32,721 nt of DNA, from the NCBI GenBank assembly GCA_015486105.1, contig WFSI01000031.1, positions 1 through 32,721 on the forward strand, written 5' to 3'. A program made the translations under genes and the position numbers. The stretch is from Aquificota bacterium (lineage in GTDB: Bacteria > Thermosulfidibacterota > Thermosulfidibacteria > Thermosulfidibacterales > B14-G1). This document shows, one piece after another, positions 314 to 21,445 of the stretch. The first letter of the stretch is position 1. The number at the start of each line of letters is the position of its first letter. Below the pieces are notes generated by a model, which made no database searches, was not told where the DNA came from, and was given only the letters and a program-made list of their open reading frames with translations.

Positions 314-946
314 TTGCCGGGCTTGTTTATCGTCTTTGAAGGTATTGAGGGGTCGGGCAAGACGCTTCAATTAAAACTGTTGGCTCGGTATCTCAGGAAG
401 AAGGGCATAAAGCCTCTGGTGACCCGAGAGCCTGGGGGAACCAGGCTGGGAGAGGGGATCCGTAGGCTTCTTTTGAAAGATGGGAACCCTTCTCCCCGAG
501 CCGAGCTCTTCCTTTATTTGGCCGACCGGGCCCAGCATGTGAAGGAGGTGATCCGTCCTGCCCTGAGGGGGGGCAGGATGGTTCTTTGTGATCGCTACTA
601 TTTCTCTACATTGGCCTATCAGGGCTACGCCAGGGGATTGGATCTTGCCTTTGTGGAGGAGGCTAATGATAGAGCCATTGAAGGTTTCAAACCTCATCTG
701 GTGGTTTTGTTGGATCTTCCTGTAAGAGTGGCTCTGGAGAGGATCAGGGGGAGGTCTTTGGACAGGATGGAGCAGGAGGCCTTCTCTTTTCATGAAAGGG
801 TTAGGGAGGGGTTTTGGGCCCAGGCCCGAAGGGAACCGGATCTCTTTTTGGTCATCGATGGCACCAGAATGCCCGAGGAAGTATTTCAGGAGGTTTTGAA
901 GGGTGTTGGAGTTCGCTTCCCTGAGATGGCGCCCCTCTTATTGTAA
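314..946 (+). CDS. tmk: thymidylate kinase
   Basis: FIVFEGIEGSGKTLQLKLLARYL (P-loop), TREPGGTRLGEGIR and DRYYFSTLAYQGYARG motifs. TTG start after GGGAGGTG. Confidence 0.95.
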   Translation: MPGLFIVFEGIEGSGKTLQLKLLARYLRKKGIKPLVTREPGGTRLGEGIRRLLLKDGNPSPRAELFLYLADRAQHVKEVIRPALRGGRMVLCDRYYFSTLAYQGYARGLDLAFVEEANDRAIEGFKPHLVVLLDLPVRVALERIRGRSLDRMEQEAFSFHERVREGFWAQARREPDLFLVIDGTRMPEEVFQEVLKGVGVRFPEMAPLLL

Positions 947-1418
947 GGGGAATGACCTGGGAAGGATCTTGACAGTTTTTTAAGAGTTCCTGGACGCTGT
1001 ATCCCGTGGTGGGTTCTATCAGATTAGGGGCTAAGGTGGCTAAGGGGAACAGCATAAAACGTCTTCCTTTAAGCCTGGGGTGTGGAAGGGTGAGCCTGGG
1101 GGTTTTTAGGATTACCTCGTCATAAAGGAGAATATCCAGGTCTATGATTCTGGGGCCTCCCGTGCCTTTTTCCTCTCTCCCCAGGGTTTTTTCTATCTGC
1201 TGTAGGGTTTCTAAGAGTGCCATGGGAGACAGGGTTGTTTGGATCTGGACCACGGCGTTGATGAACCAGGGTTGGGGGATGCCAAAGGGTTCGGTTAGAA
1301 ACCAGGGGGATAGGGTCTTTAGGGTGGTGCCCTTTCTTGAGAGGAGCCTTATAGCCGAGCAGCAGTTGTGGATCCTGGATCCTAAGTTTGAACCCAGCGA
1401 TAAGAAAGACTGTGCCAT
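852..1418 (-). CDS. folK: 2-amino-4-hydroxy-6-hydroxymethyldihydropteridine pyrophosphokinase (HPPK)
   Basis: FLSLGSNLGSR, TEPFGIPQPWFINAVVQIQT, and RIIDLDILLYDEV...LTLPHPRLKGRRFMLFPLATLAP motifs. Confidence 0.93.
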   Translation of the reverse strand: MAQSFLSLGSNLGSRIHNCCSAIRLLSRKGTTLKTLSPWFLTEPFGIPQPWFINAVVQIQTTLSPMALLETLQQIEKTLGREEKGTGGPRIIDLDILLYDEVILKTPRLTLPHPRLKGRRFMLFPLATLAPNLIEPTTGYSVQELLKNCQDPSQVIPLTIRGAPSQGSELQHPSKPPEILPRAFWCHR

Positions 1419-1565
1419 ATTTTAATTTTATCAAGGAATGGATGACAAAAGAATAGGGGATGAAGCAGGACTTCCCCCAGGGACTGGCCATTGCATTAGT
1501 TAACATATTCAAATTAAAGGAAGTCTATCTGAAAGCAAGTGAAAAGGTAGTGCATTCCTCTTTTA

Positions 1566-1781
1566 CCCCACAAAATCAACAGATTTTGTGGGGACCCCGT
1601 TCCTCCTCTCTTGCTCATGAATTCGCCGCATGCCCACGTGGAGTGCTGTTCCCGAGTAATTTATAACTCGTGGATTACCTCCTTGGTCGGCTCAGACATG
1701 GGATGCGATCGAAACGCACCGCCCCTTTCCTCCCAGAAAATGGGGGAAGTCCTGGGGGTAAAGACGTTGAAAGGAGCGGTG
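1566..1781 (+). other. putative structured intergenic element, copy A (possible ncRNA or small dispersed repeat)
   Basis: Contains a perfect 12-bp hairpin (1566-1577/1582-1593), a block homologous to copy B (1638-1669), stem GCATgCCCA/TGGGATGC (1628-1636/1699-1706), second homologous block GATCGAAACGCACCGCCCC (1707-1725), and a 12/13-bp stem CACCGCcCCTTTC/GAAAGGaGCGGTG (1717-1729/1769-1781). Confidence 0.6.
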
Positions 1782-1833
1782 GAATTAGATTAAAGTTACG
1801 CAATTGGTATACCGAGCCAAAAGGGGGAAGCAG

Positions 1834-2853
1834 ATGCATATAGTGGGTTTGATAGTCCGGTATCTTTTGGGATTGGGTTATTTAGCTGGGGGTTTGGGGC
1901 TGCTTTTTATCGGGGGATTGGGCCTTTGGGCCAGGAATTGGAAGATTGGAGGGGTAAGTGGTTTCATAGGGCTCTTGGGTTTGTTGGGTGCTTATGAGTC
2001 CTTCACCTTTGCCAGTCCCTTTCTTTTTTGGTTTGTCCTCCTTCTCTTCATTCTGATGTCGGTAGCAGCGGCCCTATATGTCACGGAGCCCGACTTGGGC
2101 ATTATAGACCGCTTTAAATCTCCTAAGAGGCTCCTGAAGGAAGGAAAGAAGGAGAAGGCGGCCATAAAGCTCAAGAGGGGTGGGTGTTACAGGGATGCGG
2201 CTAGGGTGTATGAGGAGCTGGAGTGGCATACCTCTGCGGCCCTTTGTTACGAGGAGGCGGGGGATTGGGATAAAGTGGCTGAACTCTATCTTTTGATTGC
2301 CGAAAAGGAGGAAGACGGGGAGTACTATTTGAGAAAGGCCCGGGAGATCTTTGAAGAAAAGCTACAGGACTTTACCAGGGCAGCTCAAGTGTTGGAGAAG
2401 CTGGCTGAGACAGAGGGTTGGTACTGGGAAGATGCCGCCAGGGACTGGGAGAAGGTGGGAAGCGACAAGGCTGTTCGCAGGTGCTGGAAGAAGGCTCTGA
2501 AGTATTACCAGGAGAGGGTAAAGGAGGATGATCCCGTGTTCTTGAGCGATGTGGCGGATATTTCCGAACGCCTTGGCTTAAAGGACGATGCTGTAGCCTC
2601 TTATAAGGAGTTCCTTAAATACTGCCAGGATATGGTGGAGAAGGAAGAGAAGGGGTGGCTGCGCCATGTGGTGGAGGTCAATTACGCCTTGGCTAGGATT
2701 ACAGGGGATGAGGGCTTCAAGGAAGAAGGGGACAAGACCTTGGAGAAATACAAGTTCTATCTGGACGAGGTGATCAAGAGTGAGGAGTATAAGCAGGAAC
2801 TCCTGGACGAAGTGAAACGGTGGCTCACAGAGAGGGTGGAGAGGAGACCCTAA
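1834..2853 (+). CDS. membrane protein with N-terminal TM helices and a TPR-like helical cytoplasmic domain
   Basis: ORF 1804-2853. ATG at 1834 follows AAGGGGGAAG. Two to three hydrophobic N-terminal segments, then repeated helical units of the type RDAARVYEELEWHTSAALCYEEAGDWDKVAELY. Confidence 0.75.
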   Translation: MHIVGLIVRYLLGLGYLAGGLGLLFIGGLGLWARNWKIGGVSGFIGLLGLLGAYESFTFASPFLFWFVLLLFILMSVAAALYVTEPDLGIIDRFKSPKRLLKEGKKEKAAIKLKRGGCYRDAARVYEELEWHTSAALCYEEAGDWDKVAELYLLIAEKEEDGEYYLRKAREIFEEKLQDFTRAAQVLEKLAETEGWYWEDAARDWEKVGSDKAVRRCWKKALKYYQERVKEDDPVFLSDVADISERLGLKDDAVASYKEFLKYCQDMVEKEEKGWLRHVVEVNYALARITGDEGFKEEGDKTLEKYKFYLDEVIKSEEYKQELLDEVKRWLTERVERRP

Positions 2854-2928: not shown

Positions 2929-3003
2929 CGGGGCGTAGCGCAGGCTGGTTAGCGCACCTGCCTTGGGAGCAGGGGGTCGGAGGTTCAAGTCCTCTCGCCC
3001 CGA
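2929..3003 (+). tRNA. tRNA-Pro(UGG)
   Basis: Acceptor CGGGGCG/CGCCCCG; anticodon arm CCTGC-CTTGGGA-GCAGG; T arm GGAGG-TTCAAGT-CCTCT. Confidence 0.95.
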
Positions 3004-3011
3004 TAAAAAGG

Positions 3012-3088
3012 GCGCCTGTAGCTCAGCAGGATAGAGCAGCGGACTTCTAATCCGCTGGTCGGGGGTTCGAGTCCCTCCAGGCGCGCCA
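3012..3088 (+). tRNA. tRNA-Arg(UCU), CCA encoded
   Basis: Acceptor GCGCCTG/CAGGCGC; anticodon arm GCGGA-CTTCTAA-TCCGC; 3' GCCA. Confidence 0.95.
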
Positions 3089-3113
3089 AAAGAGAAGCTT
3101 GATAAGGAAATAT

Positions 3114-3191
3114 GGTGAGTGTAGCTCAGTTGGTTAGAGCACCGGACTGTGGCTCCGGGGGTCAGGGGTTCGAATCCCCTCACTCACCCCA
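3114..3191 (+). tRNA. tRNA-His(GUG) with G-1, CCA encoded
   Basis: Acceptor GTGAGTG/CACTCAC with G-1 opposite C73; anticodon arm CCGGA-CTGTGGC-TCCGG; 3' CCCA. Confidence 0.95.
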
Positions 3192-3195
3192 AGGT

Positions 3196-3272
3196 GGCCC
3201 GCTAGCTCAATTTGGTAGAGCAACGGACTCTTAATCCGTGGGTTGTAGGTTCGAGTCCTACGCGGGTCACCA
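3196..3272 (+). tRNA. tRNA-Lys(CUU), CCA encoded
   Basis: Acceptor GGCCCGC/GCGGGTC; anticodon arm ACGGA-CTCTTAA-TCCGT; T arm GTAGG-TTCGAGT-CCTAC; 3' ACCA. Confidence 0.95.
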
Positions 3273-20403: not shown

Positions 20404-20445
20404 CACTGTTGAGTTTATAGTACTTTTCCCATCTATGGAAGAGGG

Positions 20446-20581
20446 GGAGCGGTGCTTTTCGATCCCAGCCCAGGTCTTAAACCCCAAAAAGTTTGCGACT
20501 TTTTGGGGCCCCATAACTCTAAGCCGCTCAGGAAGATGAGCAATGAGTTATAAGGTACTTGGGAAAGTGCTCCACTGGGAT
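20446..20581 (-). other. putative structured intergenic element, copy B (related to copy A at 1566-1781)
   Basis: Minus strand: GTGGAGCACTTTCCCAAGTACCTTATAACTC (20575-20545) and GATCGAAAAGCACCGCTCC (20464-20446) match copy A. Stem ATCCCAG/CTGGGAT; perfect 11-bp hairpin CCCCAAAAAGT/ACTTTTTGGGG. Confidence 0.6.
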
Positions 20582-20605
20582 TAGTACGGGACCTTGGGTA
20601 GGGGA

Positions 20606-21445
20606 TTACTCTATTTTCATGTTGATATCAACCCAAGTGGCATGGTGAACCATGGCTCCTGATGAGATGTAATCCACCCCTGTTTGGGCGACCTGGAGGA
20701 TATTCTGGGGGGTGATGCCTCCCGAAGCCTCTGTAATAACCTTACCCTGGGTTATACTCACAGCCTCTTTCAAAAGGGAAGCATCCATATTGTCCAATAG
20801 TACGATGTCTGCCCCTGCTTGTATAGCCTCTTGGAGTTCCGTCAGGTTTTTAACCTCTACCTCTATGGAGGAGGTGAAAGGAATGGCCTGGCGTATGGCT
20901 TTCACTGCCTCTTTTATGGAACCTGCCACTTTAATGTGGTTATCTTTTATCATGGCGGCGTCGTAGAGTCCCATCCGGTGGTTGAGGGCACCTCCCACGG
21001 TAACGGCGTATTTCTCCAAAAGGCGAAGGCCTGGTGTGGTCTTTCGTGTGTCCACCAGTTTTGCCTTGGTGGAGGAGATGAGATTTACCATCTCCCTTGT
21101 AATGGTGGCAATACCCGATAGCCTTTGAAGGAGGTTTAAGGCTGTTCTTTCTCCTCTGAGGAGGGCCAAGGCTGGTCCTTTCACATGGGCCAAGGGGGTA
21201 CCCTCTTCGAAGGTTTCTCCATCTTTTGTCAGGGACTCCACCTGAACTGTGGGATCCAGCATATGGAAAAGAGGATGTAAGAGGATGAGTCCTGCCACCA
21301 CCCCCGTTGATTTGGCTTTTACAACGGCAGAGACCCACTTCTCTCTCTTGGGGAGGTGGCAGGTGGTGATATCCCCATGTCCCAAGTCCTCCGATAGGTA
21401 GATCTTTAAAACCTCTTGGAGTGCGAGGGGATCCAGGCCCTTCAC
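20606..21445 (-). CDS. nadC: nicotinate-nucleotide pyrophosphorylase (carboxylating)
   Basis: EDLGHGDITT, ERTALNLLQRLSGIATITREMV, VDTRKTTPGLRLLEKYAVTVGGALNHRMGLYDAAMIKDNHI, EVEVKNL, LLDNM, EASGGI. Confidence 0.96.
   Translation of the reverse strand: MKGLDPLALQEVLKIYLSEDLGHGDITTCHLPKREKWVSAVVKAKSTGVVAGLILLHPLFHMLDPTVQVESLTKDGETFEEGTPLAHVKGPALALLRGERTALNLLQRLSGIATITREMVNLISSTKAKLVDTRKTTPGLRLLEKYAVTVGGALNHRMGLYDAAMIKDNHIKVAGSIKEAVKAIRQAIPFTSSIEVEVKNLTELQEAIQAGADIVLLDNMDASLLKEAVSITQGKVITEASGGITPQNILQVAQTGVDYISSGAMVHHATWVDINMKIE

Follow-up and report, generated by a model that had tools for sequence, protein, structure and literature searches.

Introduction

MITEAba12, a miniature inverted-repeat transposable element (MITE) of Acinetobacter, is a short, gene-less element of 113 bp with terminal inverted repeats (TIRs) and 9-bp duplications; it is dispersed, is presumed to be mobilised in trans, and has an identified parent, ISAba12 (PMC6382973). 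BrickBuilt, a MITE of Porphyromonas gingivalis, combines inverted-repeat ends with variable internal tandem repeats, which take the form of a 23-bp minisatellite (PMC4596501). The Correia/NEMIS, RUP and ERIC elements are small, mobile and repeated, and their transcripts form long stems; their TIRs measure 24, 9 and 7 bp, and their termini carry 5'-TA-3' (PMC2229807).

The element analysed here is likewise short, gene-less and dispersed, with TIRs and flanking duplications, but it differs from MITEAba12 in length, in end sequence and in that a parent is known for the latter. The inverted-repeat ends and variable internal repeats are shared with BrickBuilt, although the repeats are degenerate heptamers and the organism is unrelated. 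It resembles the Correia/NEMIS, RUP and ERIC elements in being a small mobile repeat with a long-stem fold; its CAGG ends, however, lack the TA.

The window, a 32,721-nucleotide stretch of DNA (contig WFSI01000031.1, assembly GCA_015486105.1), contains two related intergenic sequences, copies A and B. A preliminary description had suggested either an RNA structure under selection or a hairpin element in dispersed copies. The dispersed element was borne out, whereas a selected RNA structure was unsupported. Copies A and B represent, with high confidence, a family of presumably trans-mobilised MITEs from an uncultured thermodesulfobacterial lineage. The family is new, its kind (the MITE) is well known, and it is not a new regulatory RNA. 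To our knowledge, the family is previously undescribed, judging by the lack of a match in the collections searched, which did not include ISfinder.

Results

The two sequence blocks first noticed between folK and the TPR-protein gene were confirmed at 1638-1669 (block 1) and 1707-1725 (block 2), both on the plus strand, and their recurrence on the minus strand at copy B reflected homology far beyond chance (BLAST, MAFFT). The element ends were located by reading each copy outward from the conserved core. Across copies, the shared left end was CAGGACTTCCCCC, and the shared right end was the reverse complement of this sequence. Copy A is a complete MITE of 289 bp (1466-1754, plus strand) with perfect 13-bp TIRs at both ends: CAGGACTTCCCCC on the left (1466-1478, plus strand), and on the right an inverted copy (1742-1754, minus strand) that reads GGGGGAAGTCCTG on the plus strand. 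The homology within the originally proposed extent, 1566-1781, was real, but the true element reaches 100 bp further left and ends 27 bp earlier. The flanking direct repeats, GGGATGAAG (1457-1465) and GGGGTAAAG (1755-1763), form a decayed target-site duplication matching at 7/9 positions.

Within copy A, the left subterminal inverted-repeat arm GGTAGTGCATTCC (1546-1558, plus strand) is partnered by the AAACGCACCGCC arm, with compensatory changes across copies; the right subterminal arm (1710-1723, plus strand) falls inside block 2. Block 1 is the element core, common to copy B, and block 2 comprises the core end together with the right arm. The core helix is formed by GCCGC (1625-1629) and TCGGC (1687-1691), both on the plus strand. 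No ORF of at least 80 aa was found within 1466-1754, and neither terminators nor promoters of the sigma-70 type exceeded chance inside the element.

A palindromic hairpin module is inserted at 1561-1599 (plus strand). Its strong stem, 1566-1593, belongs to a separate palindromic insert with a TTCCTC duplication (1555-1560 and 1600-1605), and copies C3, C20:31.9k and C155 lack it. Hairpins of this kind, with the form CCCCAAAAAGT...ACTTTTTGGGG, also stand alone elsewhere. A second, smaller dispersed palindrome, CTTTTA-CCCCAxAAAxTC-loop-GAxTTTxTGGGG-ACCCC, was noted at 1561-1599 and 20482-20508 of the window and in L019, L035, L037, L038 and L156. It occurs inside MITE copies and also alone near genes (for instance, just upstream of gatC and close to where a thiolase-like ORF begins), and its pairing persists while the stem sequence varies. 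A third palindromic insert, CCTGCCTGTGCCGGGGACACGGCAGACAGG, occupies one fixed point in several copies (L007, L014, L015). Elsewhere in the window, degenerate short direct repeats resembling GGAGACGGG lie at 100-180, upstream of the thymidylate kinase gene.

Copy B, at about 20419-20588 on the minus strand, belongs to copy A's family but has decayed: it is diverged and truncated at its 5' end, and it has degenerate ends GTACTAATCCCA / TGGGAAAAGTACT and its own hairpin insert (20482-20508). It was homologous across the core to copy A and 11 other copies in a MAFFT alignment of 13 sequences. No target-site duplication was seen at its degenerate ends.

A BLAST search of the source genome (a 1.89-Mb assembly of 155 contigs) with window positions 1560-1800 returned 35 matches to copy A, the best non-self match having an E-value of 3e-62. 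The element is thus a dispersed repeat and more than a pair, with approximately 25-30 full or fragmentary copies in this 1.9-Mb genome. TIR matches numbered 31, compared to 9 with the reversed control. Further copies, suggested by the preliminary description as a check, were also abundant in a relative of the same family but a different genus (G002; Thermodesulfobacteriota bacterium MAG Dive96_bin4.269). G002 carries roughly 65 copies, most of them 195-259 bp long. The 13-mer end was matched there 145 times with at most one mismatch, compared to 15 times with the reversed control, and a degenerate inner pattern retrieved 53 contig stretches, every one in this MAG. The family was present in two of the 59 genomes searched, the source genome and G002, and was missing from the same-genus G001 as well as from G003 and G004. 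No similar DNA was found in the phage and plasmid collections searched, and none in the viral contigs searched. Many G002 contigs (e.g., C4, C6, C7, C11 and C14) start or end no more than a few hundred bases from an element end.

In G002, 20 of the 30 complete copies were flanked by 8-11-bp direct repeats matching at k-1 or better, mostly 9-10 bp long (examples are GATGGTCTG, GCTATCCAG, GATATAGTAA and ATTCCCTAT), while mismatched flank pairs used as the control reached this level in 0-0.4% at any one length. These target-site duplications show transposition. The same level was reached by 4 of the 14 complete copies in the source genome (8/8, 8/9, 8/9 and 9/10), and copy A and one other copy had flanking repeats at 7/9. 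From its duplications, the family looks older in the source genome; in G002, with its copy number and fresh duplications, it looks recently active.

Copy A is flanked by folK (852-1418, minus strand) and the TPR-protein gene (ATG at 1834), and the orthologous gaps of G001, G003 and G004 were without the element. Copy B has nadC (20606-21445, minus strand) on one side and a small gene without a known function on the other; the gaps downstream of nadC in G002, G003 and G004 were without it, the same two genes being ~100 bp apart. A comparison asking if insertions steer clear of genes was uninformative, as extended stretches free of stop codons abound in this DNA. A family member of the G002 subtype, in the opposite orientation, is present in G002 upstream of the orthologous TPR gene (L182, G002:C23, 1-330). 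This copy ends exactly 11 bp before a GTTGAA motif, the same distance as copy A (window 1742-1840). The matching insertion points could mark a hot spot, could stem from co-option or could be coincidental.

A search of four Pfam families across fragmentary assemblies revealed no autonomous insertion sequence that has these ends, nor did a TIR-spacing search in about 410 kb of G002 yield a partner insertion sequence. For an ISAs1-type parent, PF13808 was absent in the source genome. For an IS4/IS5-type parent, two PF01609 matches in the source genome (C58 and the edge of C20) were without CAGGACTTCCCCC ends, and none were present in G002. PF03400 (IS1) was absent in both genomes. For PF00872 (IS256), G002:C40 has a match and the source genome retains remnants, but the ends do not match. 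A candidate 2.1-kb TIR pair in L179 consisted of host genes (a UvrD-like helicase, gatC and a gyrase/topoisomerase subunit), and L116 in G003 was coding sequence with a chance TIR pair.

The stem that had been thought to bracket the blocks in both copies, changing in sequence while retaining its pairing, did not survive alignment. The A and B arms are register-shifted, and their positions are not homologous (MAFFT, 13 copies). The 3' arm of B, CTGGGAT, overlaps the block 2 GATCG and aligns to ATGCGAT of copy A, not to its TGGGATGC. In the register of copy A, 69% of the cells were paired over the 13 copies, compared to 69% in shuffles, and the covariation score was 0.122 compared to 0.134 in shuffled alignments; there was no covariation signal. 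The additional 12/13-bp stem ascribed to copy A has its 3' arm (1769-1781) in host DNA beyond the element end. As the element-free G003 and G004 have similar host sequence (GTTGAAGAGG...) at the equivalent position, this arm is host promoter-proximal sequence, with which the element pairs by chance. In Rfam, no family matched the element at the gathering score, and the window yielded four tRNAs only. Four tRNA genes are clustered at 2929-3269, downstream of the TPR gene.

Other helices did show compensatory changes. The subterminal arms keep pairing through double changes (GGTGGTGC/GCACCGCC in the source genome and GGCGGGGC/GCCCCGCC in G002), and the 5-bp core helix occurs in three paired combinations (GCCGC/GCGGC, GCCCC/GGGGC and GGCGC/GCGCC). 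The arms and core helix together gave 13 cells with both sides changed, compared to 0/500 shuffles, a comparison in which, as the counting tool warns, related sequences can exceed shuffles without selection. Folding was better than in shuffles, with z = -3.7 and -5.2 for the two strands of copy A and -3.8 for copy B. The core itself was variable: it was inverted relative to the element ends in copy L039 (1096-1334), lost in copy L022, replaced by AGCTGAT-like heptamers in many copies and interrupted in others.

Discussion

In its size, its terminal repeats and duplications, the number of its copies and its empty orthologous sites, this family fits the published description of MITEs (PMC6382973). 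Copy A, at 289 bp, lies within the expected range of about 50-600 bp and has no transposase gene. Its perfect 13-bp TIRs are the same in many copies. The duplications are of constrained length (8-11 bp in G002; 7/9 in copy A), and the copies are dispersed, with empty orthologous sites. The preliminary description had held a direct hit to an insertion sequence or MITE terminus against its own proposal; in substance, this is what was found, as the element has MITE termini.

The copies are palindromic, intergenic and multi-copy, as would be expected of a REP/REPIN-type family mobilised by a RAYT (Y1) transposase. Y1-type transposition creates no target-site duplication. The 8-11-bp duplications and classic TIRs contradict this origin, which we regard as extremely improbable. 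It is very unlikely that the sequences are instead a selected structured RNA, a cis-regulator or small RNA that is multi-copy by chance and whose fold is what evolution preserves. The better-than-shuffled folding of copy A on both strands and of copy B, as well as the compensatory changes in the subterminal arms and core helix, would fit such an RNA. However, the stem originally proposed for A and B shows no covariation, no Rfam family matches, the copies sit at unrelated loci with fresh duplications and are missing from orthologous sites, and in many copies the core has been replaced, inverted, deleted or interrupted. Compensation can, moreover, arise without an RNA function: template switching between inverted repeats is reported to be marked by homogenised arms and inversion of the spacer (PMC8604942), and one account holds that hairpins can be created and maintained by this process (PMC8794818). 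Selection for structure, in RNA or in DNA, is another possible source of the compensatory arm changes; our preferred reading is that they, and the inverted core, fit template switching between the arms, with no RNA function needed.

Copy A might alternatively have begun as a MITE and since been co-opted at its site before the TPR gene, where it would now have a regulatory or spacer role, which would accord with the G002 family member placed 11 bp before the GTTGAA motif at the orthologous gene. We consider this improbable, as the TPR gene stands without the element in G001, G003 and G004, the promoter-like spacing (counted by eye) is 12 nt at copy A compared to 17 nt in G002-G004, and the two cases, spotted after the fact, could be explained by a hot spot or coincidence. 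We also consider improbable a further proposal, in which the palindromic interior would be under selection, either because an unusual transposase uses it as a folded DNA substrate or because it acts as a regulatory RNA hairpin. The matching TPR-upstream insertion in two genera would then represent co-option or a site-specific target.

For a trans-mobilised MITE, the 13-bp ends CAGGACTTCCCCC would be recognised by a transposase encoded elsewhere, probably of the DDE type, and staggered cuts at insertion would duplicate 8-11 bp of the target, usually 9-10 bp. With the subterminal inverted repeat and hairpin-prone core that lie inside the ends, a single strand folds as a long imperfect stem. Template switching of the DNA polymerase between the arms probably keeps them matching, inverts the core on occasion and permits its deletion or replacement. 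Separate small palindromes were inserted in some element lineages and then copied along with the element. Copy A landed between folK and the TPR-protein gene, immediately before a promoter-like stretch that is also conserved among relatives, and copy B between nadC and the next gene.

These results show how an RNA that is conserved and covaries can be mimicked by a mobile palindrome: the A/B stem collapsed on alignment, yet other helices show compensatory changes of a kind that can arise from template switching in the absence of any RNA function. Assemblies are probably disrupted by the element as well: many G002 contigs end inside or near a copy, which suggests that the repeats broke the assembly of that genome. 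G002 is a good place in which to seek the transposase.
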